From Pannonibacter carbonis (lineage in GTDB: Bacteria; Pseudomonadota; Alphaproteobacteria; Rhizobiales; Stappiaceae): a stretch of DNA of 64,000 nucleotides. Both the position numbers and the translations under genes were made by a program. The stretch lies in the NCBI RefSeq assembly GCF_003012935.1, contig NZ_PUDR01000003.1:62001-126000 (forward strand), read 5' to 3'. Under the pieces are notes generated by a model. That model searched no databases. It was not told where the DNA came from and saw only the letters and a list, made by a program, of their open reading frames with translations. Positions 41,221 through 57,428 of the stretch are shown in pieces. Every line of letters begins with the position of its first letter. Position 1 is the stretch's first letter.

Positions 41221-41243
41221 CTGACACTCCTTCAGAGTTGTAA

Positions 41244-41274: not shown

Positions 41275-41326
41275 GTGTGACATAAGCAAAGGCAATCCGC
41301 TGTTTTGCGGGATCAGGAATCGCGCG

Positions 41327-42226
41327 TTGCCAACATCCCCGAAATCTCTTGTTCGCCTGACCGGCGCAGGCGTCTTCAAGGACGAGCGCTGGCTTGTGCG
41401 CGGCGTTGATCTCTCGGTCTCTCCGGGCGAAATCGTCACGCTGATCGGACCTAATGGCTCAGGCAAATCCACCACGGCCAAGATGGCGCTGGGCATCCTG
41501 AAGCTGACCGAGGGATCTGCCGATCGCCTGGACGGCCTGCGGGTCGGCTACGTTCCGCAAAAGCTTGCGATCGACTGGACCCTGCCCCTGACCGTCGCTC
41601 GTTTCATGCGGCTGACCGGCCCGCTCGCTGAAGCGGACAGCCGGGCGGCGCTGCGCATGACGGGCGTCGAGCACCTGGGCAAGTCAGAGATGCGCAACCT
41701 TTCCGGCGGCGAGATGCAGCGTGTGCTGATTGCCCGCGCCATCGCTCGCAAACCGGATCTCCTTGTGCTGGACGAACCGGTCCAGGGTGTCGACTTCAAT
41801 GGCGAGATTGTCCTCTACGACCTGATCAAGGCGGTGCGTGACGAGATCGGCTGCGGCATCCTGATGATCTCGCATGACCTGCACGTGGTGATGGCGGCCA
41901 CCGACCAGGTGGTTTGCCTCAACGGGCATGTCTGCTGCCGTGGCACGCCGGTCAGCGTCGCGCGGTCAGCGGCCTACCGCGACCTGTTCGGCCCGCGCGC
42001 GGCCGGTGCGCTGGCGGTCTATGAGCACAGCCACGACCACGAGCATCTGCCCGATGGGCGCGTCCGGCATCAGGATGGTTCGGTGACGGACCATTGCCAT
42101 CCGGGCGACGGGCACCATCACGATCATGCGCATGATCATGGCCATCACCATGACCACGATCATCATGACCACCACCACGGTCATGACCACCCGGCACGGC
42201 GCGGGGAGACCACGGATGCTCGATGA
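41327..42226 (+). CDS. znuC: Zinc ABC transporter ATP-binding protein with His-rich tail
   Basis: A 299-residue ATPase with GPNGSGKST (Walker A), LSGGEMQRVLIARA (signature) and LLVLDEPVQG (Walker B). A TTG at 41327 preceded by AGGAA is the best start; a TTG at 41258 would lie in the operator. The last 50 residues hold some 20 His in HDH repeats, absent from standard ZnuC. The gene overlaps znuB by 11 bp. Confidence 0.9.
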   Translation: MPTSPKSLVRLTGAGVFKDERWLVRGVDLSVSPGEIVTLIGPNGSGKSTTAKMALGILKLTEGSADRLDGLRVGYVPQKLAIDWTLPLTVARFMRLTGPLAEADSRAALRMTGVEHLGKSEMRNLSGGEMQRVLIARAIARKPDLLVLDEPVQGVDFNGEIVLYDLIKAVRDEIGCGILMISHDLHVVMAATDQVVCLNGHVCCRGTPVSVARSAAYRDLFGPRAAGALAVYEHSHDHEHLPDGRVRHQDGSVTDHCHPGDGHHHDHAHDHGHHHDHDHHDHHHGHDHPARRGETTDAR

Positions 42227-43040
42227 TTTCTTCCTGCGTGCGATCCTGGCTGGAGTGGGGGTGGCCCTCGTTGCCGGGCCGCTGGGCTGCTTCATTGTCT
42301 GGCGTCGCATGGCCTATTTCGGCGACACGCTCTCCCATGCAGCCCTGCTCGGCGTGGCACTGGCGTTCCTGCTGGAAATCAACATCACGCTGGCGGTCTT
42401 TGCCGTCTGCACGATCATCTCGCTGCTGCTGCTGGCCTTGCAGAAGCGGGGCGGGCTGTCGTCCGACGCGCTGCTCGGGCTGCTCGCCCATTCCTCGCTG
42501 GCACTCGGCCTTGTCTGTCTCGCCTTCATGACCTGGGTGCGGATGGACCTGATGGGCTTCCTGTTCGGTGACATCCTGTCTGTGTCGCGGCTGGACATTG
42601 GTCTCATCTATGGCGGTGGGGCGGCGGTCCTTGGCGTGCTGGCGATGATCTGGCAGCCGTTGTTTGCCGCGACCGTCAGTGCGGATCTGGCCGAAGCCGA
42701 GGGGTTGAAACCGGCCCGTGCCAACCTGATCTTCATGGTGCTGATGGCCACCGTCATCGCCATCGCGATGAAGATCGTCGGCGTGTTGCTCATCACCGCG
42801 CTGCTGATCATCCCGGCAGCCACTGCCCGGCGGTTGGCGACGGGTCCGGAGCAGATGGCCGTGCTGGCGGCCATTGCGGGAGCGGTGGCCGTGCTGGCCG
42901 GCCTGTTCGGCTCGCTGGAATTCGATACACCCTCAGGGCCCTCCATCGTGGTGGCGGCAATGCTGCTTTTCGGTGTAAGCCTGACGCCGGTCGCGACAGG
43001 GATCGGAAGTCTCCTGCGGCGCATTGGCAAGGACGCCTGA
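42216..43040 (+). CDS. znuB: Zinc ABC transporter permease
   Basis: A 274-residue integral membrane protein of the ABC-3 family with about eight helices. WRRMAYFGDTLSHAALLGVAL is the conserved cytoplasmic coupling region. ATG at 42216 inside the znuC end; zur follows 16 bp later. Confidence 0.94.
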   Translation: MLDDFFLRAILAGVGVALVAGPLGCFIVWRRMAYFGDTLSHAALLGVALAFLLEINITLAVFAVCTIISLLLLALQKRGGLSSDALLGLLAHSSLALGLVCLAFMTWVRMDLMGFLFGDILSVSRLDIGLIYGGGAAVLGVLAMIWQPLFAATVSADLAEAEGLKPARANLIFMVLMATVIAIAMKIVGVLLITALLIIPAATARRLATGPEQMAVLAAIAGAVAVLAGLFGSLEFDTPSGPSIVVAAMLLFGVSLTPVATGIGSLLRRIGKDA

Positions 43041-43056
43041 ACAGAGGAACGAGGAC

Positions 43057-43545
43057 ATGGCTGAGCACTCGCATGATCACGCGGCCTCCGGTCATGACGA
43101 TGCCCCTGACCATGACCATGGTCACGATCACACGCATGACCATGGCAGCGCACCGGCCAAACTGACGCGCAACCAGACGCTGGTCTACGGCGCCCTGTCG
43201 CGGGCCGGTGGGCCGCTCACGGCCTACACGATCCTCGACCAACTGCGCGACGACGGCTTCCGCGCCCCGCTGCAGGTCTATCGGGCGCTGGAAAAGCTGG
43301 TCGAGTTCGGCATGGTGCACCGGCTGGAGAGCCTCAACGCCTTCGTCGCCTGCAGCCATCCGCAATGCGTCGACCACGAGACCATGGCCTTTGCCATCTG
43401 CGAGGCCTGCGGTTCTGTCAGCGAATTTGCCGATGCGGCGATCACGCGCCAGCTCAAGGGCTGGGCCGGCAACAATGGTTTTGCCCTGGCCAAGACCACC
43501 ATCGAGCTGCGCGGCACCTGCCGCAGCTGCCAGGCGGCCGTCTGA
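43057..43545 (+). CDS. zur: Zinc uptake repressor with His-rich N-terminus
   Basis: A 162-residue Fur-family protein. The winged helix (TRNQTLVYGALSRAGGPLTAYTILDQL) and metal-binding domain with Cys pairs CEAC and CRSC are standard. The first 30 residues are an unusual HDH/GHD-rich extension (nine or so His). GAGGA precedes the ATG at 43057. It probably represses znuA and znuCB-zur when zinc is plentiful. Confidence 0.92.
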   Translation: MAEHSHDHAASGHDDAPDHDHGHDHTHDHGSAPAKLTRNQTLVYGALSRAGGPLTAYTILDQLRDDGFRAPLQVYRALEKLVEFGMVHRLESLNAFVACSHPQCVDHETMAFAICEACGSVSEFADAAITRQLKGWAGNNGFALAKTTIELRGTCRSCQAAV

Positions 43546-43671
43546 ACCGGCACGCAGCCTGCCGTAACGCGATCCGCATCCTTGCGACTTGACGTCCCTT
43601 TCCGTGCCTTGCCGCTGGTCACGGGCCGACAAGCGGCTATGCTCGCCTTCCAACGAAATGAGGAGGGAGCA

Positions 43672-45294
43672 ATGGCGGTTCGACTGACCTTCTGTGGCGC
43701 AGCCCGCATGGTGACGGGCTCTTCCTACCTGCTGGACATCGCCGGGCAGCGCCTTCTCATCGATTGTGGCCTGTTCCAGGGCTCCAAGGCCGTGAAGGAG
43801 CTGAACTACCGGCCCTTTCCCTTTGCCGCCGACAGCCTCGACGCGGTGATCCTCACCCATGCCCACATCGATCATGCGGGGCTGATCCCGAAGCTCTGGA
43901 AGGCCGGCTATCGCGGGCCGGTGCACATGACCGAAGGCACCCGCGATCTCCTCACCTTCATGCTGCCGGACAGCGGCCACATCCAGGAAACGGAGGTCGA
44001 GAACCTCAACCGGCGCAACCTCAGGCGCGGCAAGGACACTGTGACCCCGATCTACAGCCAGACCGACGCCATCGCATGCCAGGCGATGTTTGCCGCCCAT
44101 GACTATGACATCTGGCTTGACGTGTTGCCGGGTGTGCGGGCGCGGTTCTGGAATGCCGGGCATATCCTCGGCTCGGCCTCCGTCGAACTGGAGATCGCGG
44201 TCGCCCATGTGGACGACAGCCTTGATCCGTCCGCATCGCCGATGCGGCTCCTGTTCTCCGGCGACATCGGCCCGGACAACAAGGCGTTCCATCCGGATCC
44301 GGATGCGGTGAGCGGGGTGGATCATCTCATCTGCGAATCCACCTATGGCGGGCGCGAGCGGCCGCAGATCACTGAAGAGCAGCGCCTTTTGGTTCTCGCC
44401 GGCGAGGTGCGCCATGCGCTGGACCGGGGCGGCGTGCTGCTGATCCCGGCTTTTGCCGTCGAGCGCACGCAGGAGCTGATCGTCGACCTGATGCGCCTGA
44501 TGGAAAGCGGCAGCATTGGCCATGTGCCGATCTTCCTGGACTCTCCGCTGGCCATCGCCGCGACCGAGGTCTTCAACCGGCACGCGGCGGATCTCGAGCA
44601 GTTGAGCACGCATCCGCATTTGCTCGACAACCGCTGGATCAGCCTGTGCGAGAGCGTGGAGGACAGCAAGGCGCTGAACCGGATTGCCAGCGGCGCGATC
44701 ATCATCGCAGCCAGCGGCATGTGCGATGCCGGCCGCATCCGGCATCACCTGAAGAACCGTCTCTGGAAGCCGGCAACAACGGTACTTCTGGTCGGCTATC
44801 AGGCGCCGGGCACGCTGGGCGCGCAGCTGCTGGAAGGCCAGCGCAACGTGCGCCTGATGGGTGAGGAGATTACCGTGCGCGCCGACATCCGCTCGGTCGA
44901 CATCTACTCCGGCCATGCCGCCCGCAGCGACCTGATCGAATGGATCCTCGAGCGGCGGCCGGTGCATGGCAGCCTGTTCCTGACCCACGGCGAGGAAAGC
45001 CAGGCGCTGGCGCTCTGCGAGAGCCTGGTGGCAAAGGGCTTTGCCGATGGCCATGTGGTCGTGCCGGCGCTGGATGCTATCTACGACCTGATGCCGGGCA
45101 GGGCGGTGCTCCGGCGCGACGGTCCGCCGCCGCGCGCGGAGGCCGGCATTGCCGAGCGGCGCGACTGGAGCGCCGACTATCCGCAGCTGCTCCTCGACAT
45201 CCAGTCGGCCCTTGAAGGCGCGGCGGACGAGAAGAGCCGCTCGGTCCTCCTGCGCCGCCTCAGGCGGGCGTTGGATGAGGAAAAGGCTGGTTAG
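43672..45294 (+). CDS. MBL-fold beta-CASP RNA-processing-like exonuclease
   Basis: A 540-residue protein of the CPSF/Ysh1-like family (COG1236). Zinc motif HAHIDH at residues 63-68, GHILGSASVEL, FSGDIG, ESTYGGRER and the C-terminal beta-CASP/RMMBL elements (SGMCDAGRI, YSGHAARSDL, HGEESQA) are all present. Family members cut or trim RNA. ATG at 43672 follows AGGAGGG; starts at 43582 and 43639 are possible. Its convergent neighbour is the glycan cluster. Confidence 0.9.
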   Translation: MAVRLTFCGAARMVTGSSYLLDIAGQRLLIDCGLFQGSKAVKELNYRPFPFAADSLDAVILTHAHIDHAGLIPKLWKAGYRGPVHMTEGTRDLLTFMLPDSGHIQETEVENLNRRNLRRGKDTVTPIYSQTDAIACQAMFAAHDYDIWLDVLPGVRARFWNAGHILGSASVELEIAVAHVDDSLDPSASPMRLLFSGDIGPDNKAFHPDPDAVSGVDHLICESTYGGRERPQITEEQRLLVLAGEVRHALDRGGVLLIPAFAVERTQELIVDLMRLMESGSIGHVPIFLDSPLAIAATEVFNRHAADLEQLSTHPHLLDNRWISLCESVEDSKALNRIASGAIIIAASGMCDAGRIRHHLKNRLWKPATTVLLVGYQAPGTLGAQLLEGQRNVRLMGEEITVRADIRSVDIYSGHAARSDLIEWILERRPVHGSLFLTHGEESQALALCESLVAKGFADGHVVVPALDAIYDLMPGRAVLRRDGPPPRAEAGIAERRDWSADYPQLLLDIQSALEGAADEKSRSVLLRRLRRALDEEKAG

Positions 45295-46064
45295 GCGGCG
45301 GCAGCCACCTCGGCAAAGAGATCGGCGATGCGTGGCCAGGCCGCGCCCGGGTGGTGGGCGGCGATGGCAAGGAATTCCTCGACGAAGGCCTCGCAGCCCG
45401 CATCGTGGTCGAGGTGATGGGTCAGGATGCCGAGCGGCTCGCCGCCGGTGTTGCGGCGGCGCAGGAACTGCAGCTCCAGCCGCTCGCTCACTGATGCCCA
45501 GCCAATGAAGCGGCGGTCCTTCTTCCACTTGATGATGTCGAGATGCGTCTGCACCTGCGCCGGGATCAGGGTCTCCCAGGTGAAGGTCGACAGGCCCTTC
45601 AGCCCTGCCTCCGCCAGCTGGCGAGCGACCGGCGGGGCGATCCGGTTCCAGGGCGGCACGAAGGCGGGCACGAAGGCCGCCGGGAACAGGGCCTCGAGCC
45701 TTTCGCGCCCGGCCACCAGCTCGGCAAAGGCGTCGCCCGGCGCGCGGCGGTCGCCGAACTCGGCTGCCTTTTCCCCCAGGTCCTTGCGCTGGTGGTTGAG
45801 ATGCTGCCAGCCATGCTGCAGCACGACGGCATGGGGCTCGTTGCGCAGCCGGTCGGCGAGGGCCTCAGTCGCGGTCTTCGGGATCACGGCCAGCCCGACA
45901 TCGACGTCGTGGGCGTTGGCCGCAGCAAGCAGCCGCTCCAGCGCCGGCGTCGGCGCGATGGCGTCATCGTCGCGCCACCAGAAGCGAACCTGGGTGCCGC
46001 GCTCGGCGAACCAGTCGAGATGGGCGATGAGATGCGCGCGAAAGGCGGCAAGTTCGGACGTCAC
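45291..46064 (-). CDS. Polysaccharide deacetylase-family protein
   Basis: A 257-residue NodB-like hydrolase. The catalytic-type Asp-Asp (FWWRDDDA, near residues 28-35) and His pair (HGWQHLNH) are present; no signal peptide is visible, so it probably acts on a cytoplasmic precursor or is a divergent family member. Last gene of the five-gene glycan cluster, overlapping the upstream gene by 4 bp. Confidence 0.82.
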   Translation of the reverse strand: MTSELAAFRAHLIAHLDWFAERGTQVRFWWRDDDAIAPTPALERLLAAANAHDVDVGLAVIPKTATEALADRLRNEPHAVVLQHGWQHLNHQRKDLGEKAAEFGDRRAPGDAFAELVAGRERLEALFPAAFVPAFVPPWNRIAPPVARQLAEAGLKGLSTFTWETLIPAQVQTHLDIIKWKKDRRFIGWASVSERLELQFLRRRNTGGEPLGILTHHLDHDAGCEAFVEEFLAIAAHHPGAAWPRIADLFAEVAAAA

Positions 46065-47215
46065 CGGCGGATCTCCTCAAGATCGGTCAGGAGCTGGCGG
46101 GCGCTTTCGGCAGCGCCGTTCATGGCAACATCGGCTTGTGCGACGGGCCGCGACAGGGCGGCATCGACGGCGGCGGCCAGGCCCTGTGCAGTCAGTCCGG
46201 CTTCCGGCACCATGACCGCCCGGCCATGGCGGGCCAGCGCCTCGGCGCGCTGCGTCTGCTCGGTCTCGTCGCCCTGGGCAAAGGGCACCAGCACCGCCCG
46301 AACCCCGGCAGCCAGCACGTCGAGCACGGTGTTGTAGCCGGCCTGGCTCACCGACAGGCGCGCGCGGGGCAAGAGGCCCGGGAAATCGCGCCGCGCCCGC
46401 TCCACCAGAACTCCTGCGGAGGCGGCAGCAGCAAGCGCTGAAAACTCTGGATCCGGGAGGTCGTGGCCGACCAGCAGCCGCCAGCGGCAGTCGCCGGCCT
46501 GCTGCGAAAGTTCCCGCGCGCCAAGGGCGGCCTCAAGCAGGGCCCGCGCCACCGCGCCGCCACCGCAGGAGACAATCACCTCGTCCGCGCCGTCACCGGC
46601 CGGCGGTTCCGGCCGTGCCCCGCCACCGACATAGCCGGTGTAGCGCACCAGATGCGCGACCCGGTCGGCAAAGGGGAAACTGTCCTCAAGCCGCGTGAAG
46701 GCGGGATCGGAATGCACCAGCACCCGGTCATAGTGGGCGAGCGCCCGCTCTGCCATCCAGGCTTCCTTGGCGGGATCCTTCTTGCGCACGAGGATGTCGC
46801 GGATCGAGGCGGCGATCAGCGGCCGCCTTGGCAGCGCGCGGGCCGTCTCCAGCAGCGGCTCCAGCTCATGGGCAAATTGCCGCCGTCCGAAAGGGTAGGT
46901 CTCGGTGAGGAGCAGGTCGACGGGTTCAGTCAGGAAGGCCGCCAGCAACGCCTGCCGCCGTGTTTCCTCGAAGCCGGCGGGCAGGGGGCTGCCGTCCGGC
47001 GACACGAGCGTGCGGAAGCTGGCGTCTAGGGCGCGCACCGGCGGCAGCGCGATCACCTCAAGACCCGAGGTGTCCAGCGTCGGCGGCAGCAGGTTGCCGG
47101 TCGCAAGCCGCACCGCGACGCCCTCGCGGGCGAGCGCCTTGCCGATGGCCACCGCCCGCACTGCATGACCGGTGCCCAGCAGATGCTGCACATGGATGAA
47201 GGCACGACGGGTCAT
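46061..47215 (-). CDS. MurG-like glycosyltransferase (paralogue 2)
   Basis: A 384-residue GT-B enzyme. N-terminal HLLGTGHAVRAVAIGKALA is the nucleotide-sugar glycosyltransferase opening, and the C-terminal SQAGYNTVLDVLAAGVRAVLVPF is the GT28-like donor site. It resembles the gene at 49576-50790, so the cluster holds two related members. Cytoplasmic or membrane-peripheral; acceptor unknown. ATGA overlaps at both ends. Confidence 0.85.
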   Translation of the reverse strand: MTRRAFIHVQHLLGTGHAVRAVAIGKALAREGVAVRLATGNLLPPTLDTSGLEVIALPPVRALDASFRTLVSPDGSPLPAGFEETRRQALLAAFLTEPVDLLLTETYPFGRRQFAHELEPLLETARALPRRPLIAASIRDILVRKKDPAKEAWMAERALAHYDRVLVHSDPAFTRLEDSFPFADRVAHLVRYTGYVGGGARPEPPAGDGADEVIVSCGGGAVARALLEAALGARELSQQAGDCRWRLLVGHDLPDPEFSALAAAASAGVLVERARRDFPGLLPRARLSVSQAGYNTVLDVLAAGVRAVLVPFAQGDETEQTQRAEALARHGRAVMVPEAGLTAQGLAAAVDAALSRPVAQADVAMNGAAESARQLLTDLEEIRR

Positions 47216-48342
47216 GAGGCGCGCGCTCCGGCCTTGCTGCGGGTGGCGATGGCCGCGTCCAGAAAGGCCGTCACCCTTGCGGCTCCAGCCTCCAGCGTGT
47301 GCCGTTCGCGGATGTGGCGGCTGGCGGCGACGCCCATCTGCAGGCGCAGGTCGGCATCCGAAAGAAGGCGCTGCAGGGCGGCTGCGAAGCCTTCGACGTC
47401 GCCTTCCGGCGCGAGCAGACCGGTCACCCCGTCCGCAACCACGTCCGGAACGCCGAACGTCGCCCCGCCGACAACCGGCAAGCCGCTGGCCTGCGCCTCA
47501 AGAAACACGAAGCCGAAGGCCTCGCGGATTGCCGGCCAGACGAAGAGGTCATGATCCGCATAGACCGCCGGCAGTTCCTCGGGGTGCAGCGCCCCCAGGA
47601 AGCTGCAGCGGTGCGGCGGAAACAGCGCCTCGATCTCCGCCCGCGCGGGGCCGTCGCCGACGATGGTGAGATGCCAGTCAAAAGCCGACACGTGGCGCAA
47701 CGCCTCGGCCAGCACCCGATAGGAGCGCTCCTTGTCGCCATGCCGCATCATGCCGACGGCCAGCAGGCGCACAGCTGCTGTGCTGCTCGCATCCGGTTGA
47801 ATCCGGTGCTGCGCCTGGAACGGCGCTGCATCCAGGAAAGGGAGCAAAAGATAAAGCCGATCCGAGGGCAGCGCGGCCGCAAGGCAGCCCATGTCGGCCC
47901 GGTGAATGGCCCCAACGGCATCGGCTCTGCCCAGAGCGGCGTCTGCAGCGGCAAATCCGAAGGCCCATTCGCCCGTTGCCCGCTTGGGCGCGCGGCTCGC
48001 TTCGATCACGGCATAAGGCATGTCGAAGGCGTTCGACAGGGCCGGCCCGATCCAGTCTGGCGCCTTGTGATAGAGGTGATAGCTCAGGAAGACGTCCGGC
48101 AGGTAGCCCTCCGCCCGCCACTCTGCCTCGACCCGTGCCGCCTCGGCCAGCGCTGCCGCCTTGGCCTCGGGCAGTTCGCTCCCCGCCTGGCGCCACGAGG
48201 CAAAGCGCGAGGCAATGCGGACACTGTGGCCGGCGGATTCAAGCGCGCGCACGATCAGCCGCGCAAAGGTCCTGTCACCGGACGGACGCGGATCGTCCAG
48301 CGGCTTCATCGGGGCGGTGAAGGCGATCCTGAGGCCACTCAC
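47212..48342 (-). CDS. Glycosyltransferase, GT4-like (GTG start)
   Basis: A 376-residue GT-B enzyme. The donor-site E-x7-E pattern is EAFGFVFLEAQASGLPVV near the C-terminus. I place the start at a GTG (48342), which gives SGLRIAFTAPMKPLDD, a normal Rossmann opening, and overlaps the upstream stop in GTGA. ATG starts further upstream lie inside the neighbouring gene. Confidence 0.85.
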   Translation of the reverse strand: MSGLRIAFTAPMKPLDDPRPSGDRTFARLIVRALESAGHSVRIASRFASWRQAGSELPEAKAAALAEAARVEAEWRAEGYLPDVFLSYHLYHKAPDWIGPALSNAFDMPYAVIEASRAPKRATGEWAFGFAAADAALGRADAVGAIHRADMGCLAAALPSDRLYLLLPFLDAAPFQAQHRIQPDASSTAAVRLLAVGMMRHGDKERSYRVLAEALRHVSAFDWHLTIVGDGPARAEIEALFPPHRCSFLGALHPEELPAVYADHDLFVWPAIREAFGFVFLEAQASGLPVVGGATFGVPDVVADGVTGLLAPEGDVEGFAAALQRLLSDADLRLQMGVAASRHIRERHTLEAGAARVTAFLDAAIATRSKAGARAS

Positions 48343-49559
48343 AGCACGGGCCGGAACTTGGCGGCAAGCCGGTCGATGCCGGGCTCTGTCGAGAAGTCGC
48401 GCCGCACTTTGGCCGCCGCCGCCAGCCCAAGCGCGATGCGGCGGTCGGGATTGCCGATTAGCTCTGCCATGGCATCGGACAGTGCCTGCGGATTGCCGGG
48501 CTCGACGAGGACGCCTGTCTGCTGGTCGTCGATCAGCTCCGGGATGGCCGACACGCGCGTCGAAAGGCAGCACAGGCCCATGGACTGCGCCTCCATCAGC
48601 ACGTTCGGCAGCCCGTCGCGGTCACCGCTTTTCGCCAGCTTTGATGGCAGGATGAAGAGATCGGCGCGGCGGCAGGTCTCGATCACCGCCTCGCGCGGCT
48701 GCGCCCCGCGCCAGACGATGCGGTCGCTGATGCCGAGCTTGCCGGCCATGTCCTTGAGACGGTTCGACAGCTCGCCGCCGCCGATATGGATGAACTGCCA
48801 GTTTAGACCCGCAGGCAGGCGCGCGAGCGCTTTCAGAAGGTCGTCATAGCCCTTCTTCTCGACCGCCCTGCCGACCGACACGAGCCGCACCGGCGAGCCC
48901 GTTCCGTCGCGCTTCTCCTCCGGAGCTGCCGGTGCGGGGAACGGCGAGAAATCGAGGCCATGGTAGACGAGTTCGACCTTGTCCGGCTCGGCGCTGAGGC
49001 TGCGCAGGTAGTCGACATTGGTCCGCGTGCAGGTGACACCCCAGGCCGCATCATCCAGCTTCGTGCGCAGATCCCACTCAGGGCTGGTCCAGATGTCCTT
49101 GGCATGGGCCGAGAAGGACCAGCGGCGGCCCGACAGATGTGCCGCATAGCGGGCGACCGAGCAGGGCGTGTGCAGATAGTGGGTGTGGATCCAGGTCACA
49201 TCCTCGGGCAGCTCATGCGCGAAGACACAGGCCTGACCCCAGCGGCGATGCCGGCCGATGTTGTTCTCATGGGCCAGATCGGCTTCGAACAGTGCCCGGG
49301 CGGCAGCATAGTTCGGCTGCTTTTCGGCCCAGCGGCGCGCTCGCGCCACCCGCTTCGGGTCGTCCTTCAGGTATTCGGGCAGGTAGAGCACATCGGCCGT
49401 GATCTGCCGGTGCAGGTCGTGGATATAGGGGTCGTAGGGCTGGCGCAGGGCAACGATCAGCTGGCCGATGCAGCGCTTCTGCAGCCCGAGAATTTCCTGG
49501 GCAATGAAGGTCTCCGACAGGCGCGGATAGCCTTTGACGACAACGGCAATGCGGGACAT
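48339..49559 (-). CDS. Glycosyltransferase family 4 protein (exopolysaccharide type)
   Basis: A 406-residue GT4 enzyme resembling colanic-acid/WcaL-type transferases: N-terminal VVVKGYPRLSETFI, middle HAKDIWTSP, and donor motif DGLPNVLMEAQSMGLCCLST. The ATG at 49559 lies 16 bp after the previous gene; longer starts have no support. The sugar donor and acceptor are not readable. Confidence 0.87.
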   Translation of the reverse strand: MSRIAVVVKGYPRLSETFIAQEILGLQKRCIGQLIVALRQPYDPYIHDLHRQITADVLYLPEYLKDDPKRVARARRWAEKQPNYAAARALFEADLAHENNIGRHRRWGQACVFAHELPEDVTWIHTHYLHTPCSVARYAAHLSGRRWSFSAHAKDIWTSPEWDLRTKLDDAAWGVTCTRTNVDYLRSLSAEPDKVELVYHGLDFSPFPAPAAPEEKRDGTGSPVRLVSVGRAVEKKGYDDLLKALARLPAGLNWQFIHIGGGELSNRLKDMAGKLGISDRIVWRGAQPREAVIETCRRADLFILPSKLAKSGDRDGLPNVLMEAQSMGLCCLSTRVSAIPELIDDQQTGVLVEPGNPQALSDAMAELIGNPDRRIALGLAAAAKVRRDFSTEPGIDRLAAKFRPVL

Positions 49560-49575
49560 GGCGCGCGCAGTTCCT

Positions 49576-50790
49576 TCAAAGCCCGGCGCGTCGAAGGACA
49601 CGCGACCGGTCCGGCGCCGACAGGATCTGCCCGACCCGCTTTTCGATGACATCAAGGCCACCGAGCAGGTTGTCGATACCAGCAGCCGAGGGCGGGGCCG
49701 CATGCGGCAGCGCCGACAAGGCATCAAGCATCTGGTCGGGATCCGGATACTGCTCGATCGGCAGCACGGTCAGAAGGCCGGTCTCGGCCGCCCGGTCCGC
49801 GCGGATGGCCTGCTCGCGGCGCGGAATGACGCGTGGCACTAGCAGGGTCGGCTTGTCGAAGGACAGGATCTCGCAGAAGGTGTTGTAGCCACCCATGCCG
49901 ACAATGGCGGTGGCTGCCTGCAGATAGGGCTCCATCTGCGGCGTGAAGCGCATGATGTGGACATCCCGCAGATGCTCGGCGCGGGTCATGAATTCGCTCA
50001 CCGATGCGGCCGGCATGAACGGCCCCAAAACGATCAGTGCCGGAAACAGCGGCTTGGCATGGGATTCGTATGCCCGCATGACCCAGTCGACCATTTCCAC
50101 CCCGTCGCCGCCGCCACCGGGCGTCACCAGAATGAAAGGCTCCTCGCCGAAGGGCAGCGGTTCGCTGAGCCTAGCGCCCTTGGGCATTTCACGGCGCAGG
50201 AAACCTGTGTACAGCAGCTTGTCATGCACGCTCTGCGGCAGATCGATGCCTGCCAGCGGATTGCACATGCCTTCCGGCCCATAGACCCAGATCTCGTCGT
50301 AGAGTTCCTCAAGCGCCGGGCGGACGTTCTTGCGGTCCCACTCCTGCTGCAGCACTTGCGGATCATCGAGAACGTCGCGCAGGCCGAGGATCAGCCGTGT
50401 TCCGGCCTTCTTGAGCTGCTCCAGCGTCGGCAGGACTTCACCGCGCAAGCCAAGCGGCTCCTTGTCGACGATGAAGATGTCCGGCTCGAACACCTGTGCC
50501 GTGTGCTCGATGATCGAGGAGCGGATTTCCAGCGTATGGTCGATGTTGAGATGCAGCGACAGCGAGGTATATTCCCCGTCGCGCAGCTTGATGACGCCGG
50601 GAATACGCACAAAATCCACGCGCGAGCGGAACTCGAAACTACCGATGATCGGAGAACCTGACAGAATCAGGACCGAAAGGGTGTCGAAGGAACCGACGAG
50701 CGCCTGAGCGATCGCGCGGCAGCGCCGAAGATGACCGAGCCCGAAGGAGTCGTGGCTGTAAATCAGGATGCGCGGCGATTCGGATCGCAT
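49576..50790 (-). CDS. MurG-like glycosyltransferase (COG4671-type)
   Basis: A 404-residue GT-B enzyme opening with ILIYSHDSFGLGHLRRCRA and carrying MGGYNTFCEILSFDKPTLLVPR in the C-terminal donor site, typical of the COG4671 group of predicted transferases. ATG at 50790. First gene of the cluster, divergent from the ABC-like gene across 185 bp, so both units can be controlled together. Confidence 0.85.
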   Translation of the reverse strand: MRSESPRILIYSHDSFGLGHLRRCRAIAQALVGSFDTLSVLILSGSPIIGSFEFRSRVDFVRIPGVIKLRDGEYTSLSLHLNIDHTLEIRSSIIEHTAQVFEPDIFIVDKEPLGLRGEVLPTLEQLKKAGTRLILGLRDVLDDPQVLQQEWDRKNVRPALEELYDEIWVYGPEGMCNPLAGIDLPQSVHDKLLYTGFLRREMPKGARLSEPLPFGEEPFILVTPGGGGDGVEMVDWVMRAYESHAKPLFPALIVLGPFMPAASVSEFMTRAEHLRDVHIMRFTPQMEPYLQAATAIVGMGGYNTFCEILSFDKPTLLVPRVIPRREQAIRADRAAETGLLTVLPIEQYPDPDQMLDALSALPHAAPPSAAGIDNLLGGLDVIEKRVGQILSAPDRSRVLRRAGL

Positions 50791-50975
50791 GTTGCCCCGT
50801 TGCTGCCCCTGGGTCGTGTCACGAGGAACCTGCCTCGGGGCAACACCCAAACCTTGATAAATTTGCGGCCTTCCCGACCGTCTATCCCCTCTCTATGGCA
50901 CATCCGGCGTTGCGAGTTAATACGCAACGTCTTACCACTACTGCGATGGCAAAAAGTGCCTGACTGGACCGGGAT

Positions 50976-53594
50976 ATGGAAAAAAGCCTCTTTCGCTTCA
51001 TCTGGAGGTTCAGCGCCCGCCAGCAACTCCTGATCCTGTTCGTAACTGTCCTGTCTTATCCGGTCAGTTACATCCTGCTTGAGCTGCCGAAGCTGATCGT
51101 CAATGACGCGGTCCAGGGAGACGGGTTTCCCCGGGTCATCTTCGGTTTCGAGTTTGACCAGATCTCTTATCTGTTTCTGCTCTGCGTCGCGTTTCTGACA
51201 CTGGTGATCGTCAGCAACGGCATCAAGCTTGGCATCAATGTCTACAAGGGCCGGCTTGGCGAGCGCATGTTGCGGCGTTTGCGCTTCGAGCTGTTCCAGC
51301 GCGTGCTGCGGTTCCGGCTGCCGCATTTTCGTAAAGTAAGTTCCGGCGAGATCATCCCGATGATCACGGCCGAGGTCGAGGATGTCGGTGGTTTTATCGG
51401 TGAAGCCTTCGCCCTGCCGGCCTATCAGGGCGGGTTGCTGGTCGTGCAGCTCGGCTTCATCTTCATGCAGGATCCGCTGCTGGGTCTTGCCGCAATCAGT
51501 TCCTATCCTGTCCAAGCCTATATCATTCCGAAACTGCAGCGGAAGGTTGTGCTGTTATCGCGCGAGCGGGTGAAGAACATCCGCATCGTTTCCGACAAGG
51601 TCGGCGAGGCGATCAGCGCAGTTCCGGAAATTCACGCCAACGACGCCTCGGCCTGGCACTCGGCCGACGTGGCAGATCGCCTCTATTCCAACTTCAAGAT
51701 TCGTTATGAGATATACAACCGGAAGTATTTCATCAAATTCCTGAATAATTTCCTCAATCAGCTGACGCCGTTCTTTTTCTACATGATCGGTGGCTATCTT
51801 GTGATCGAGGGAAGTCTCAGCATTGGTGCCTTGCTGGCAGTCATTGCTGCCTACAAGGATCTTGCCGGGCCCTGGAAGGAACTGCTGGACTACTATCAGC
51901 TCGTCGCCGATGTGAATGTGAAATACCAGACTGTGGTCGAGAACTTCGATCCGGCGGACATCTATCCGGTTGAACGCCTCACCGGTGACGAGCGCGTCTC
52001 GCTGGATGGTGACGTGGTTCTGAACGGAGTGAGCTTCACCGGCGGTGTTGCCGGTCAGGAGGTGTTCAGTGCGTCACTCCATGTCCGCAAGGCAACGGCG
52101 GTGGCGGTTGTCGGGCCAGACGGGTCCGGGCGCGCCGAGATCCTGCAATTGGCTGCCGGTCTGCTCAGCCCTACCGCTGGCCGGGTGGAGATTGCCGGGC
52201 ACGATCTGGAGCGCTTGACAGAATCCACCCTGGGCCGCGAGATCGCCTATGTCGGGTCCTCGGTGCATGTCTGGACCGGGACCATTCGCGATAACCTGTA
52301 CTACGGTCTGCGCCATCGGCCGATGAGTGACGTTGAACGCACCGGATCGGCGGCAGATGAACGCAAGCGTGCCTTGCGCGAGGCCCGCGAAACCCGCAAT
52401 CCGACCTTTGACATTCAAGCGATCTGGGAAGATCTGGGGGCTGCCGGGGCAGCATCCAGGGAGGAACTGGACGAACTGGCGCTGCAACTCCTGACCGTCG
52501 TCGGGCTTGATGCAGACATCTACCGTCTTGGCTTGCAGTCCCGCTTTGATCCCTCGATGGACGACCGGTTTGCCGACAGGATCCTGGCAGTGCGCCGCAA
52601 GCTCGCGGACCGGATTGCTTCGGATCCAAAGCTCGCCGGCCTTGTCGAAATGTGGGACGCGAATGCCTTCAATCAAAGCGCTACCCTGGCCGAAAACCTC
52701 TTCTTCGCGGTGCCGACCGACCCGGCCGTGACCATGGACCTGATGCCGGGACAGCCGGCGGTCCTCGCTTTCCTGAGCCGCACGGGCCTCAACGCAGATC
52801 TCCAGGCCATCGGTCTCAAGATCGCCGAGACGATGGTGGAACTCTTCGCCAATATTTCCAGCGATTCCGGGCTGCTGGGGACCTATTCCTTCATCACGCA
52901 GGACGACCTGCCGGAGTTTGACCGGATCGTCAGGCAGGCCAAGTCAGCCAATCAGAAGGTGGGCCTGTCCGAGGCCGACAGGGAACGGCTGATCGCGCTC
53001 GCCTTCAAGCTGATCCCGGCGCGTCACCGCCTCGGTGTGCTGGACGACGCCATGCGCGCCCGTATCATTGCGGCGCGGGCGGACTTCCGCAAGCAGGTGG
53101 TCGACGGCAACCCTGCCTACACGCCGGTTGATCCGGATGCCTACCTGCCGCCGCTGCATATCGAGGACAATCTCCTGTTCGGTCGCGCCCGCGTCGACCG
53201 GCGGGATGCCCGTCAGCGCATCGATGCCGTCATCCGGACCGTTGTCGAGGAAGAGGAACTGCGTGAGCCGATCATCTTCACCGGCTTCGGATACCATGTC
53301 GGTGTCAGCGGTTCGAAGCTGTCCGCGCACCAGCGGCGCAAGCTGGCTCTTGTGCGCGCGCTGCTGAAGAATGCTGCTGTCACAATTCTGGACGATGTTG
53401 CCGCTGGCAGCGGGGATGATGACATGGCGCTGCGTCGCCGTCTCATGATCCTTCTCGAAGGGCGTACCGTGCTGTTCGGAACACCGCATTTGAACGTTGC
53501 CGGAGAGTTCGAGCATAGTGTTGAATTGGATCAGGGTCGTGTCGTCCGGGTGGACGGGGTTGACCCGGCGGCCGGGCAAAAAGACCAGCAGTAA
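50976..53594 (+). CDS. ABC transporter-like protein with degenerate, interrupted NBD
   Basis: An 872-residue protein. Residues 1-330 form an exporter-type membrane domain. The NBD begins at about 345. Walker A is degraded (GPDGSGRAE, 380-388; Lys replaced by Arg386). The signature is altered (KLSAHQ near 781-786) and Walker B is ILDD (803-807), with Asp where the catalytic Glu normally stands. Roughly 395 residues separate Walker A and signature, against about 100 in normal exporters. ATP hydrolysis is therefore doubtful. Three DNL/ENL motifs (435-444, 569-578, 727-736) punctuate the insert. It leads the operon with the cyclic-nucleotide genes. Confidence 0.85.
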   Translation: MEKSLFRFIWRFSARQQLLILFVTVLSYPVSYILLELPKLIVNDAVQGDGFPRVIFGFEFDQISYLFLLCVAFLTLVIVSNGIKLGINVYKGRLGERMLRRLRFELFQRVLRFRLPHFRKVSSGEIIPMITAEVEDVGGFIGEAFALPAYQGGLLVVQLGFIFMQDPLLGLAAISSYPVQAYIIPKLQRKVVLLSRERVKNIRIVSDKVGEAISAVPEIHANDASAWHSADVADRLYSNFKIRYEIYNRKYFIKFLNNFLNQLTPFFFYMIGGYLVIEGSLSIGALLAVIAAYKDLAGPWKELLDYYQLVADVNVKYQTVVENFDPADIYPVERLTGDERVSLDGDVVLNGVSFTGGVAGQEVFSASLHVRKATAVAVVGPDGSGRAEILQLAAGLLSPTAGRVEIAGHDLERLTESTLGREIAYVGSSVHVWTGTIRDNLYYGLRHRPMSDVERTGSAADERKRALREARETRNPTFDIQAIWEDLGAAGAASREELDELALQLLTVVGLDADIYRLGLQSRFDPSMDDRFADRILAVRRKLADRIASDPKLAGLVEMWDANAFNQSATLAENLFFAVPTDPAVTMDLMPGQPAVLAFLSRTGLNADLQAIGLKIAETMVELFANISSDSGLLGTYSFITQDDLPEFDRIVRQAKSANQKVGLSEADRERLIALAFKLIPARHRLGVLDDAMRARIIAARADFRKQVVDGNPAYTPVDPDAYLPPLHIEDNLLFGRARVDRRDARQRIDAVIRTVVEEEELREPIIFTGFGYHVGVSGSKLSAHQRRKLALVRALLKNAAVTILDDVAAGSGDDDMALRRRLMILLEGRTVLFGTPHLNVAGEFEHSVELDQGRVVRVDGVDPAAGQKDQQ

Positions 53595-53626
53595 GCCGGT
53601 CCGGCTGCGGACATCAGGAGGATATC

Positions 53627-54085
53627 GTGTCTCTGGAAGTTGAAGTCGACGCCTTGCGGAAAGTGCCGCTGTTTCGCGGGATCGATGAAACCAAGCTGCG
53701 GCTGCTGGCGTTCATCAGTGACCGCATGCAGTACCAGACCGGCGAACATCTGTGCGAACAGGGGGAGGAGGGCGACACCGCCTTCATCATCCTGAAGGGC
53801 GAAGCCGATGTCCGCGTCCACACCCGCGATGGCGACCGTTCGGTTGCGACCGTGCGCGAGCATTCGATCGTCGGCGAGATTGCGATCCTGTGCGATGTGC
53901 CGCGCACCGCGACGCTGGTTGCCAGAACCGATATGGATGTGCTCACAGTGACCAAGGATGATTTCCTGAAACTTCTGAAAGAATTTCCGGATATGTCTTT
54001 GGAAGTGATGCGCACTCTGGCGCAGCGTCTCGAGCGCACCACGCGTGATCTGGCTACTGCCCGGTCCGGCGGGGCGGACGCATGA
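53627..54085 (+). CDS. Stand-alone cyclic nucleotide-binding domain protein
   Basis: A 152-residue CNBD without any HTH. The beta-barrel and phosphate-binding cassette are clear: VGEIAILCDVPRTATLVA (about residues 84-101) has the Gly-Glu and Arg-Thr-Ala needed to hold cAMP or cGMP. A C-terminal helix ends the protein. GTG start after AGGAGG. It is 32 bp after the ABC-like gene and so likely a regulatory subunit for it. Confidence 0.9.
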   Translation: MSLEVEVDALRKVPLFRGIDETKLRLLAFISDRMQYQTGEHLCEQGEEGDTAFIILKGEADVRVHTRDGDRSVATVREHSIVGEIAILCDVPRTATLVARTDMDVLTVTKDDFLKLLKEFPDMSLEVMRTLAQRLERTTRDLATARSGGADA

Positions 54086-54097
54086 GGGAGAGGCCTT

Positions 54098-54922
54098 TTG
54101 GCGGATGATTTCTGGCTCCGGTGCTGGGGCGTGCGCGGATCGACACCGACACCAGGCGTGGACACTCTGCGCTATGGCGGCGAGACGACCTGCTTTGAGA
54201 TCCGGGCCGGTGACGCCCTGGTTCTGGTCGATTGCGGTTCGGGTGCGCGCAACCTCGGGGGCTTGCTGGTGTCAGAGGGGCCGCGGCACTTCGATCTGCT
54301 GTTCACCCACACCCATCTCGACCATATCTGCGGCCTGCCGTTCTTCAAGCCAGCCTATGACCCGCGCTTCACGATCAACGCCTGGGCCGGACATTTTCTC
54401 GATGAGACCGATCTGGTCGACATCATTTGCCGCATCATGTCGCCGCCGATCTTCCCGGTTGCTGCAACCACGCTGAAGGCCGTGACCTTCCGCACATTCA
54501 AGGCCGGCAGCGCGATTGACCGCAGTGATGGACTGTCGATCCGGACGATTCGCCTGAATCATCCCGGTGGTGCCTGTGGCTATCGCTTCACATATGGTGG
54601 TCGCTCGATATGCATCATCACCGACCATGAACACGGCGATCCGGAAATCGACGCGGCGCTGATCGACTTCGTCGCAGGCGCCGAGGTGATGATCTATGAC
54701 GCGATGTTCACCGATGCCGAATACGAGACTTATCGTGGCTGGGGGCATTCGACCTGGCAGAAGGCGGTCGAACTGGCCACACGGGCCGGGGTTCGCACGC
54801 CCGTGCTGTTCCACCATGATCCCCGCCGCAGCGACGATGAACTCGACGAGATCGGCATGGCAGCAGAGGCCGCCCACCCGGGGACGTTGGTGGCCAGCGA
54901 GGGCATGATCCTGCGGCCCTAG
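54098..54922 (+). CDS. MBL-fold metallohydrolase (TTG start)
   Basis: A 274-residue metallo-beta-lactamase-fold protein. It opens with WGVRGSTPTPG and has the zinc motif THTHLDH near residues 69-75 with further His/Asp in LNHPGG, TDHEHG and HHDPRRSDDE. This subgroup is often linked to signalling genes, and class II cyclic-nucleotide phosphodiesterases share the HxHxDH motif, but the substrate is not known. A TTG at 54098 after GAGGGAGAGG is the only good start. Confidence 0.85.
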   Translation: MADDFWLRCWGVRGSTPTPGVDTLRYGGETTCFEIRAGDALVLVDCGSGARNLGGLLVSEGPRHFDLLFTHTHLDHICGLPFFKPAYDPRFTINAWAGHFLDETDLVDIICRIMSPPIFPVAATTLKAVTFRTFKAGSAIDRSDGLSIRTIRLNHPGGACGYRFTYGGRSICIITDHEHGDPEIDAALIDFVAGAEVMIYDAMFTDAEYETYRGWGHSTWQKAVELATRAGVRTPVLFHHDPRRSDDELDEIGMAAEAAHPGTLVASEGMILRP

Positions 54923-55096
54923 GTGTGCCGCTGATTTCGATAACGCTGGTTCACCTTTCAAGACCCCGGCAAGACATCCGTTGCGGTGACCCATCTGCTT
55001 GCGGCAACGTTACGTCATGATCGTGTCCGCATATGCCCCGGACGCCGCGCCCGGCTTGCTGCCAAACCGCGTTCGATCTTCGTTGGAGACTGGACA

Positions 55097-56467
55097 ATGG
55101 CAGGACAACCGGACAGACGCGGTCACGCAGGCAAGCTGCCGTTTGGCCTGTTCGGCCATCAGTCGCTGGCAGCGCTTCCCGCCCGGGTGCGCGAGGAAGT
55201 GCGGCGCCGCGAAATCGAGGCAGAGCGGCTGATCAGCTGGGTCCAGCTCTCGATCGTGCTGCTGTTTTCCCTGCTCTATGCCATCGCTCCGAGGGCCGAG
55301 GGCGCTGATGGCACCAATTTCGTTCCCGGGATCCTTGCCGCCTATTTCGTGTTCACGCTGGTCCGGCTGCTCCTGTCCTACCGGATCGAACTGCCCCAGT
55401 GGTATCTCTTCGTGTCGATTGCAGTCGACATCGGCTTGCTGGTCGGCCTGATCTTCTCGTTCCACATCCAGTACGCGCAGCCGGCGACCTTTTATCTCAA
55501 GGTCCCGACCCTGATGTATGTCTTCATCTTCATCGGGCTGCGGGCGCTGCGCTTCGATCCCCGCTTTGTCATCGTCTCTGGCCTGGCTGCAGCTGCCGGA
55601 TGGGTGGGAATGGTCGCCTATGCCATCACTGGCGACGATGGCCGGATGCGCATCACCCGAAACTACGTCGAGTATCTGACGGGCAACTCTGTGCTGCTCG
55701 GGGCAGAATTCGACAAGATCCTGGTCATCCTGACCGTGACGGGCCTGCTGGCCGCCGCGCTTTACCGGGGGCGGGGGCTGCTGGTGACCGGCATGCGCGA
55801 GCAGGGCGCGGCCAATGACCTGCGGCGCTTTTTCGCGCCGGAGGTTGCCACATCGATCACTTCGTCCGATGCCAGTCTTGTTGCCGGGCAAGGCGTCCTG
55901 CGCGATGCGGCGATCCTGTACGTCGACGTGCGCGGCTTCACCCGTCAGGCCGCCAGCCTGCCGCCGCAAACCGTGATGCAGGTTCTGGCCTGCTACCAGA
56001 AGACCGCCGTCGATGTGATTGAGGCCCATGGCGGCAGCGTCGACAAGTTCCTCGGCGATGGCATCCTCGCAACGTTCGGGGCCTTGTCCCCGTCTTCAAC
56101 CTACGCAGCCGATGCAACGATGGCGGCCATTGAGGTGGTTGCGCGGCTCCACGCCGATGCGGTCCGCATTTCCAGCCTCGGCTGGCCGGGGAGTTTTCAG
56201 GTTGGCACAGCCTTCTGTTGCGGTCAGGTGGCCGTCGGGTTGGTGGGGGGGCAAGACCGGCTCGAGTTCACCGTGATCGGCGATGCCGTGAACCGTGCCG
56301 CCAAGCTGGAGAATGCCAACAAGGCCGAAGGCTGCAGTGTTCTCACGGACCTTGCCAGTTACGAGCTCGCCTGCGCCCAGGGCTATGCCGGCGCGCAGGG
56401 GGCACTGCGTCCGGCGACCTCCGTTGCCGGTCTCGACAGGCCCGTCGATCTGGTGGTTCTTGGCTGA
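55097..56467 (+). CDS. Membrane class III adenylate/guanylate cyclase
   Basis: A 456-residue protein. About six hydrophobic helices (residues 45-235) precede a CHD catalytic domain. Metal-binding Asp277 (in VDVRGFT) and Asp321 (in FLGDG) are present. The transition-state motif is Asn399...Lys403 (VNRAAKLE), with Lys where Arg is classical, a form common in alphaproteobacterial cyclases. It should make cAMP or cGMP. The ATG at 55097 follows GGAGACTGGACA; an upstream start at 54986 adds a non-typical leader. Confidence 0.9.
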   Translation: MAGQPDRRGHAGKLPFGLFGHQSLAALPARVREEVRRREIEAERLISWVQLSIVLLFSLLYAIAPRAEGADGTNFVPGILAAYFVFTLVRLLLSYRIELPQWYLFVSIAVDIGLLVGLIFSFHIQYAQPATFYLKVPTLMYVFIFIGLRALRFDPRFVIVSGLAAAAGWVGMVAYAITGDDGRMRITRNYVEYLTGNSVLLGAEFDKILVILTVTGLLAAALYRGRGLLVTGMREQGAANDLRRFFAPEVATSITSSDASLVAGQGVLRDAAILYVDVRGFTRQAASLPPQTVMQVLACYQKTAVDVIEAHGGSVDKFLGDGILATFGALSPSSTYAADATMAAIEVVARLHADAVRISSLGWPGSFQVGTAFCCGQVAVGLVGGQDRLEFTVIGDAVNRAAKLENANKAEGCSVLTDLASYELACAQGYAGAQGALRPATSVAGLDRPVDLVVLG

Positions 56468-56660: not shown

Positions 56661-57428
56661 ATGCAACTGTCCGCGCAGATTTCGGCCGTCGTTACCGGTG
56701 GTGCCTCGGGGCTCGGGGCGGCGACCGCCCGCATGCTGGCAGCCAGCGGCGTCAAGGTGGCCTTGTTCGACCGCAATGCTGAGCAGGGCGTGGCTGTCGC
56801 TTCGGAAATCGGCGGACTGTTCGTCGATGTGGACGTGACCAGCGAGGACAGTGTTGTCGCGGGCTTTGCCAAGGCACGCGCCGCCCATGGCCCGGAACGC
56901 ATCCTGGTCAACTGCGCCGGCATTGCCCCTGCCGCCAAGACCACCTCGCGCGGTGAGCCGCATTCGCTCGCCCTGTTCGAGAAGGTGATCGCGGTCAATC
57001 TCGTCGGCTCGTTCCGCTGCATTGCCCATGCGGCCACATCCATGTCGGCGCTGGACCCGGTGACAGCGGACGGCGAGCGCGGCGTCATCGTCTCGACCGC
57101 CTCGGTTGCCGCCTTTGATGGCCAGATTGGCCAGGTCGCCTATGCCGCCTCCAAGGCGGGCATTGCCGGCATGACGTTGCCGATTGCGCGCGACCTGTCG
57201 AAATCCGGCATCCGCGTCATGACCATCGCCCCCGGCATTTTCGAGACACCGATGCTGCTCGGCTTGCCTGAGGACGTGCAGAAGTCATTGGGCGATCAGG
57301 TGCCTTTCCCCTCGCGTCTCGGCAAGGCGACAGAATACGCACAACTGGTCCTTGCCATCGTCGAGAACGGCATGCTCAACGGCGAAACCATCCGCCTCGA
57401 CGGCGCCATCCGCATGGCGCCGCGGTAA
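56661..57428 (+). CDS. SDR-family 3-hydroxyacyl-CoA dehydrogenase-like enzyme
   Basis: A 255-residue classical short-chain dehydrogenase. The cofactor motif TGGASGLG is near residues 11-18, NCAGIAPA follows, and the catalytic Tyr-x3-Lys is YAASK. The sequence resembles HSD17B10/2-methyl-3-hydroxybutyryl-CoA dehydrogenase proteins, with an unusually long stretch before the active site. A GGGAGAG site precedes the ATG. Role: probably fatty-acid or branched-chain breakdown; neighbours do not confirm it. Confidence 0.85.
   Translation: MQLSAQISAVVTGGASGLGAATARMLAASGVKVALFDRNAEQGVAVASEIGGLFVDVDVTSEDSVVAGFAKARAAHGPERILVNCAGIAPAAKTTSRGEPHSLALFEKVIAVNLVGSFRCIAHAATSMSALDPVTADGERGVIVSTASVAAFDGQIGQVAYAASKAGIAGMTLPIARDLSKSGIRVMTIAPGIFETPMLLGLPEDVQKSLGDQVPFPSRLGKATEYAQLVLAIVENGMLNGETIRLDGAIRMAPR

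Follow-up and report, generated by a model that had tools for sequence, protein, structure and literature searches.

What could a set of glycan synthesis genes have to do with a set of cyclic nucleotide signalling genes transcribed in the opposite direction? This question is raised by a cluster of nine genes at 45291-56467 of a 64-kb window, that is, the whole stretch of DNA analysed here, which was taken from Pannonibacter carbonis (GCF_003012935.1, contig NZ_PUDR01000003.1, 62,001-126,000 of the forward strand) and has its own numbering. The minus-strand unit encodes a deacetylase (DEA) and four glycosyltransferases (GT28a, GT4a, GT4b and GT28b), and the plus-strand unit encodes a protein with the fold of ATP-binding cassette (ABC) exporters, a stand-alone cyclic nucleotide-binding domain (CNBD) protein, a metallo-beta-lactamase (MBL) fold hydrolase and a membrane-anchored nucleotide cyclase (CYC). 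The nine open reading frames (ORFs) are all open, with the coordinates and the order given below, as seen in an ORF check and in a Pfam and NCBIfam scan of the window proteins. Therefore, these open frames and domain assignments confirm the inventory of nine genes made in the initial annotation.

The answer that we favour, with roughly even chances of being right, is that these genes form a module responsive to cyclic mononucleotides (cNMPs), in which a receptor or gate built on an ABC-exporter scaffold controls the assembly or the flipping of a glycan. This answer is based on the gene set, its linkage and co-occurrence, natural fusions, predicted folds and the conservation of residues, from which we infer the identity of the cNMP, its binding, the direction of control, the glycan structure and the choice between flipping and enzyme control. 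As far as sequences can tell, the cyclic-nucleotide coupling and the gene linkage are well supported. A small sugar structure seems to be the product of the gene set, and a cyclic-nucleotide sensor appears to have taken the place of the ATP motor in the ABC-fold protein.

Conservation and linkage of the gene set

The cluster was compared in 140 loci, 80 from named genomes and 60 regions from further genomes. The first are the best 80 of at least 567 confirmed candidates, with flanks of up to 10 kb. The other 60 were picked for diversity from the class and order hits and long open frames were deliberately included, so that the fraction of fused genes given below is not a frequency. Named Alphaproteobacteria account for 73 of the 80 loci and Stappiaceae for 26, and because many loci are close kin the counts are not independent. 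Three metagenome-assembled genomes (MAGs) of Gammaproteobacteria and one of Anaerolineae are also among the 80 loci, and these may be wrongly binned.

The ABC protein was matched in 127 of the 385 class genomes and in 68 of the 199 order genomes (E<=1e-100), and the class genomes mostly have one copy of the module each. A phylum-wide sample gave 28 matches in 398 genomes (E<=1e-60), 27 of them in the window's class, the window's own genome included, and the 28th is a partial match close to a contig end.

Regarding the neighbourhood, a separate CNBD gene lies 3' of the ABC gene, on the same strand and within 619 bp, in 120 of the 140 loci, whereas in 19 loci the CNBD is within the ABC ORF itself and in one, L124, it is absent. 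We found 101 loci with a separate CNBD and both flanks of at least 7.5 kb. Three or more of the five minus-strand genes lie within 9 kb in 91 of these loci, and none of the five does so in 5 (GT28a and GT28b are best-hit labels in these comparisons and are sometimes swapped). The linkage to the glycosyltransferase genes is also retained in rearranged loci such as L115, L117, L128 and L146. Furthermore, 121 of the 385 class genomes have both the ABC gene and GT28b and 252 have neither, with 6 genomes having the ABC gene only and another 6 having GT28b only; several of these exceptions are incomplete genomes. Thus, the two divergent units are linked in relatives, as the synteny test proposed with the initial annotation demanded, and a chance neighbourhood was rejected on account of this linkage and of the co-occurrence of ABC and GT28b.

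A related explanation is that two independent units, an operon for a glycan and a group of genes for cNMP signalling, simply lie side by side. The fused ABC-CNBD loci point in this direction, as 14 of the 15 with flanks of at least 7.5 kb have no local glycosyltransferase genes and only one has at least three minus-strand genes (L205 is a second fusion linked to glycosyltransferase genes, with shorter flanks). Nevertheless, the genes occur in the same genome even when they are unlinked, since GT28b was found elsewhere in all nine sampled class genomes in which we found a fused ABC-CNBD gene (G022, G040, G105, G154, G218, G267, G301, G331 and G379). The linkage retained in the rearranged loci and the members shared by two gene orders, described below, also speak against independence, and we consider this explanation very unlikely.

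In Sinorhizobium meliloti and Rhizobium the ABC-CNBD pair and the glycosyltransferase genes are located on large plasmids or chromids. An S. meliloti plasmid (L214:5420-14106) has GT28b, annotated as 'hypothetical', GT4b, GT28a, a methyltransferase gene, ABC, CNBD and an FkbM methyltransferase gene. The CNBD protein carries there the annotation of a Crp/Fnr regulator, and the GT28a matches are split across two frames and are missing from the gene table of the record.

The ABC-fold protein and its nucleotide-binding domain

The ABC gene (50976-53594, plus strand) is intact and encodes 872 aa in a single open frame, with an ABC_membrane domain (PF00664) above cut-off, which corresponds to the transmembrane exporter fold, and an ABC_tran domain. 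The AlphaFold model has a mean pLDDT of 84.8, the blocks of the nucleotide-binding domain (NBD) being mostly at 90 or more and the transmembrane domain (TMD) being partly lower. P-glycoprotein-type exporters were the best Foldseek matches of this model, and TmrAB (TMt 0.59) and TM287/288 (TMt 0.58) were matched as well.

This protein had been described as interrupted, which is right in the sense of a domain insertion but not in the sense of a broken gene. Residues about 442-731 (52299-53168) form an insert in the NBD, and all 141 aligned family members have such an insert, of 266-361 residues, which separates the Q-loop helix from the signature helix and motif. A broken ABC gene was rejected because the insert is family-wide. 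The insert is made of repeats that share a Q-loop element: hhalign gave a probability of 98.4 for unit 2 against unit 3, and 70.8 and 72.8, over 23-24 columns, for unit 1, the authentic Q-loop segment, against units 2 and 3. Our reading is that the Q-loop/helical region has been partly triplicated.

The ATPase motifs are eroded throughout the family. The window protein has Arg-Ala in place of the Walker A K-[ST] and Asp in place of the Walker B Glu, so it lacks both a working Walker A (GxxxxGK[ST]) and the Walker B Glu. The Walker A Lys was found in 46 of the 141 members and in none of the 45 members of the window's group, K-[ST] in 4 of the 141, the Walker B Glu in 58, K-[ST] together with this Glu in 4, and Gln at the Q-loop column in 17. 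Regarding the conservation of the different parts, the mean majority-residue conservation in 58 sequences was 0.73 for the TMD and 0.53-0.56 for the NBD parts and the insert. Judging by these motifs, ATP hydrolysis by the ABC-fold protein is unlikely, which favours a cNMP-driven gating or receptor action. The lost ATPase motifs, taken together with the exporter fold and the conserved TMD, suggest that the protein is probably a receptor or gate switched by cNMP. ATP-driven export through this protein, which its description as transporter-like had brought into consideration, finds no support in a family with such motifs.

It could still be argued that this is a real ATP-driven glycan exporter or flippase, which works either by itself, through weak sites, or as the inactive half of a heterodimer with another ABC subunit, and that the CNBD is no more than an accessory brake. 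Heterodimeric exporters with one degenerate site exist, both Pfam and the model give an exporter fold, and the top NCBIfam models listed describe MsbA-type exporters, with scores far under cut-off. However, the low counts of K-[ST], Walker A Lys and Q-loop Gln speak against it, no second ABC exporter was seen among the 25 neighbour clusters listed, and the neighbouring importer genes that we checked are of the opp-type (SBP_bac_5, BPD_transp_1), so we regard such an exporter as unlikely. The clustering of neighbouring ORFs in this high-GC DNA was full of antisense ORFs and we kept only those clusters that were readable or checked by Pfam, namely a histidine phosphatase, a methyltransferase and the opp-type importer.

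The same observations can be explained by an ABC-CNBD pair that acts as a cNMP receptor and switches the glycosyltransferases at the membrane, with no transport of glycan. PilZ domains act in a parallel way in synthases controlled by c-di-GMP. The tight co-occurrence of ABC and GT28b would be expected then, as would the missing ATPase motor and the higher conservation of the TMD than of any other part of the ABC protein. Nevertheless, we find it improbable, because the TMD of an ABC exporter is an odd scaffold for enzyme control and because fused pairs exist without nearby glycosyltransferase genes.

The CNBD protein and its natural fusions

The CNBD protein (53627-54085, plus strand) has 152 aa and PF00027 (cNMP_binding, E 7.6e-21) as its sole Pfam family. 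A Crp/Fnr transcription factor was rejected, as there is no helix-turn-helix domain after the CNBD. The profile of the protein matches the regulatory domains of PKA and PKG and the SthK channel. Furthermore, the phosphate-binding Arg (R93) is kept in 139 of 140 CNBD sequences and E84 in 132, with Asp in 7 and Ala in 1, so that the protein has the Glu and the Arg predicted for a phosphate-binding cassette.

The natural fusions mean that the CNBD and the ABC-fold protein can be one molecule. On a FastTree tree with 117 of the 141 sequences, parsimony gave three changes between fusion and fission, one of them forced by well-supported branches. The earlier proposal that the CNBD relays the signal to the transporter-like protein is thus supported by the near-invariant adjacency of both genes, by the 19 fusions and by the conserved residues of the putative cNMP pocket.

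One of the fusions (L128:10001-13504) is a single ORF with the ABC-fold protein, the CNBD and a weak C-terminal GGDEF-like domain (Pfam E 0.00015, just under cut-off). This suggests a link to c-di-GMP-type domains.

The cyclase, the MBL hydrolase and a second gene order

CYC (55097-56467, plus strand) is a predicted class III cyclase with PF00211 (Guanylate_cyc), and its PDB matches are bacterial adenylate cyclases. The ATG at 55097 is the more likely start, judging from the sequence, compared with the GTG at 54986. The active-site residues, for which we assume the usual roles (the metal Asp, Asn, Arg, Lys354 and Thr429), were compared in 43 aligned cyclases, a few of which may be non-orthologous: D314, D358 and N436 are present in all 43, K354 in 39 and T429 in 41, but the usual Arg is mostly replaced by Lys. 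The retention of Lys354 and Thr429 suggests ATP as the substrate.

With the membrane domain of CYC as query, 71 of the 385 class genomes matched and 61 of the 71 have the ABC gene. In 30 of these 61, the window's own genome included, both genes lie within 30 kb on one contig, mostly at 12-19 kb, whereas in 26 they are on different contigs and in 5 they are far apart. Cyclase matches of at least 120 bits were found in 41 of the 140 loci, 34 of them with an MBL gene within 4 kb. The linkage of CYC and MBL to the set is supported by the 61 genomes with the ABC gene and the 30 with both genes close together.

The MBL-fold hydrolase (54098-54922, plus strand; Lactamase_B_2) is of the RNase Z / class II phosphodiesterase type. 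Its presumed metal ligands, HxHxDH, which are the motif of class II phosphodiesterases, are present in 47 of 47 sequences. RNase Z is its best PDB match, the match to Apyc1 (7u2r) is weak (E 0.0087), and it scored 44.7 bits against the cyclic-nucleotide phosphodiesterase model NF041851, which has a cut-off of 400. RNase Z, YhfI, yeast PDE1 and Apyc1 are class II phosphodiesterases according to PMC9117128. The likeness to this class makes cNMP hydrolysis by the MBL protein plausible.

A cyclase, a cNMP effector and an MBL phosphodiesterase are also what a Pycsar-like defence system would contain, and the PADLOC models PycTIR and PycC match the CNBD and the cyclase. However, these matches are confined to the CNBD and cyclase domains, and Pfam found no TIR domain in the nine proteins. 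Moreover, the set is present in about one third of the class genomes, mostly in one copy each, and is tied to glycosyltransferases. We therefore consider a defence function extremely improbable.

In the window the MBL-CYC pair comes directly after the CNBD gene. A second order was found in five (L217-L219, L221 and L222) of the seven regions fetched, L217-L223, which had been selected for CYC lying close to ABC. There, an MBL-CYC pair faces the genes of an opp-type importer, after which come DEA-GT28a-histidine phosphatase-GT4a-GT4b-GT28b and, last, a divergent ABC-CNBD pair. A methyltransferase gene follows ABC-CNBD in L217-L219, the three regions that reach that far. As for the other two regions, MBL and GT28b are missing in L220 and the region of L223 ends before the ABC gene. 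The MBL gene is within 1 kb of CYC in six of the seven regions, sometimes with one gene between them. That the same genes recur in two different orders is the best reason to regard them as one system.

The importer was assigned by Pfam on three proteins of L217 and L221 (ABC_tran with oligo_HPY, SBP_bac_5 and BPD_transp_1). In L217 (3488-9586) its genes, including that of a family 5 solute-binding protein, lie between DEA and CYC, and it may recycle the glycan or be a mere neighbour. A conserved protein of about 180 aa adjoins DEA in the second order (L218:8733-9278), with a hydrophobic N-terminal part and without any Pfam hit.

The putative glycan synthesis genes

GT28b (49576-50790, start moved from 50850) is the first gene of the minus-strand unit and encodes a GT28/MJ1255-like glycosyltransferase with PF04101, the match to TIGR00661 being below cut-off. 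It is followed by two GT4 glycosyltransferases, GT4b (48339-49559, start moved from 49727; PF00534, E 2.1e-33), which is EpsE-like below cut-off (NF041876, 134.9 bits against 400), and GT4a (47212-48342, start moved from 48573; PF13692/PF00534). GT28a (46061-47215) is a GT28-type glycosyltransferase with a MurG-like C-terminal domain, as assigned by PF04101 (E 1.5e-12) and by its syntenic relatives.

The last gene of the unit, DEA (45291-46064, minus strand), was not assigned to any family by Pfam or NCBIfam (E<=0.001), and a PDB sequence search up to E 1 gave no match. Its AlphaFold model, built with 29 sequences, has a pLDDT of 96.8, and Foldseek matched it to deacetylases of the CE4/NodB fold (3rxz, PgdA and ArnD). 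D32-D34, H84 and H88, presumably the metal ligands, do not vary in any of the 90 sequences compared, and the prediction is a CE4 NodB fold with its Asp-His-His metal site. No obvious signal peptide was seen by eye. Regarding the Wzx/Wzy and Wzm/Wzt export routes, Pfam found no flippase, polymerase or Wzt-type ATPase in the nine proteins.

A proposed mechanism and the points against it

In the mechanism that we propose for the cNMP-responsive module, the glycosyltransferases and the deacetylase would make in the cytosol a short, deacetylated glycan containing amino sugars, probably lipid-linked. The membrane cyclase would make a 3',5'-cyclic mononucleotide, probably cAMP, and the MBL enzyme, being of the class II phosphodiesterase type, would probably remove it. 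The CNBD protein would bind the cNMP and act directly on the ABC-fold protein, setting its state, so that the conformational trigger would be cNMP on the CNBD instead of ATP. A candidate docking surface is the repeated NBD insert. The switch of the ABC-fold protein would then control the assembly of the glycan or its passage through the membrane. A more specific version, in which cNMP gating stands in place of the ATP engine and a flippase or gate for glycolipids, independent of ATP, is opened and closed by the CNBD in trans or within one chain, is possible, although rather doubtful.

If the ABC-fold protein works in this way, it would represent a novel class of membrane proteins gated by cNMP, which about one third of the sampled alphaproteobacterial genomes have and which is tied to an unrecognised glycan of its own. 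To our knowledge, few bacterial outputs of cAMP or cGMP are known beyond transcription factors, and the module would offer a concrete cNMP target, namely the near-constant membrane partner of the CNBD, which is transporter-like and has no ATPase motifs. It would also give us one more ABC protein that, like SUR, has been taken into a receptor or gating role, and it points to an uncharacterised glycan common to rhizobia, azospirilla and marine alphaproteobacteria.

Several observations weigh against the proposed module. Concerning the ABC-CNBD pair, the Walker A Lys and the Walker B Glu are retained in part of the family, as counted above, so that these members may bind nucleotide or work with a partner subunit. 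In L124, a Gammaproteobacteria MAG, an unrelated ORF of 194 aa that could be placed in no family comes a few bp after the ABC gene (10001-13235), and there is no CNBD in the 1.15 kb remaining after ABC. The fused loci mostly have no local glycosyltransferase genes, and hence the ABC-CNBD pair may have a wider role. Moreover, the co-occurrence of ABC and GT28b is given in raw counts that ignore kinship, and two of the six genomes with ABC and without GT28b, G266 and G169, are 99-100% complete and seem truly to have one gene without the other.

Concerning the cyclase, the usual active-site Arg is Lys in 37 of the 43 sequences, and its activity could be lower for this reason. Within 9 kb of the 101 loci with full flanks, a cyclase match was found in 44, some of which may be generic, and MBL in 41. 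Since many linked loci have no CYC or MBL nearby, other cyclases may serve; a search of the window's genome gave 11 matches to class III cyclases. In L200, from the same genus as the window, ABC-CNBD-MBL is kept and no cyclase was found in the stretch fetched. Both findings bear on the first proposal, in which the cyclase would set a local cNMP level.

Gene layout and neighbouring genes

With the revised starts, three of the four minus-strand junctions are 4-bp overlaps, as the initial annotation had it for this strand, but the fourth, between GT4b and GT28b, is a 16-bp gap. The divergent intergenic region (50791-50975) does have the 185 bp first reported, once the GT28b start is placed at 50790. 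It contains an inverted repeat, TTGCG-N8-CGCAA, which was not found at the equivalent place in 33 of 33 relatives, and a conserved operator was rejected for this reason.

A short-chain dehydrogenase gene comes after CYC (56661-57428) and was matched, at a distance of up to 9 kb, in 38 of the 101 loci with full flanks. On the other side, just upstream, there are zinc uptake genes and a Zur-like regulator (40174-43545), followed by an MBL-fold protein (43582-45294). Judged from their translations, these were excluded from the cluster.

Comparison with known systems

We found no description of this gene set in a search confined to an open-access subset of the literature, subscription papers being outside it. 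Type IV ABC exporters whose substrates are lipids and glycans (MsbA and PglK; TmrAB and TM287/288 for the fold) have the same transmembrane region and overall fold as the ABC-fold protein. Unlike them, this protein has a large repeat insert in the NBD, an eroded Walker A, Walker B and Q-loop, and a near-constant CNBD partner.

Exporters of bacteriocins of the NHLM type likewise come with a CNBD protein, linked to an ABC exporter and, by the name of the TIGR03896 model, tied to peptide export. However, the present CNBD scores 45.4 bits against the cut-off of 161.05 of this model, neither a peptidase nor a precursor domain was found by Pfam among the nine proteins, and the ATPase motifs are eroded. 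The polysaccharide machines controlled by c-di-GMP and PilZ, BcsA and Alg44, are also cases in which a nucleotide second messenger controls the production or export of a glycan. They use c-di-GMP, PilZ and a synthase, whereas the present set would use cNMP, a CNBD and a pseudo-ABC protein. The SthK channel and the regulatory domains of PKA and PKG have the CNBD family in common with it, but the output domain is here an ABC-exporter fold instead of a channel or a kinase. Regarding the MBL protein, the HxHxDH motif is shared with YhfI, Apyc1 and the RNase Z group of class II phosphodiesterases, although it falls below the curated NCBIfam cut-offs shown, so it is only a putative member.

Finally, the msbA2 operon of S. 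meliloti (SMb21188-SMb21191) combines glycosyltransferase genes with the gene of an MsbA-like protein, for which the export of an unknown polysaccharide has been proposed, and the loss of msbA2 is deleterious only when the upstream glycosyltransferase genes are intact, according to PMC3687685 and PMC12239276. In strain 1021 the operon is near 938 kb of pSymB, according to PMC3687685. The matches above 60 bits in the region 930-965 kb of pSymB are limited to two, both partial and in the NBD (70.5 and 62.0 bits), and the ABC-CNBD pair of the present family is at 841723-844996 of the same replicon. An MsbA2 orthologue was therefore rejected, with the position of msbA2 taken from that text. The msbA2 operon is nevertheless, by analogy, a close functional counterpart of the present cluster, having glycosyltransferase genes together with an exporter.

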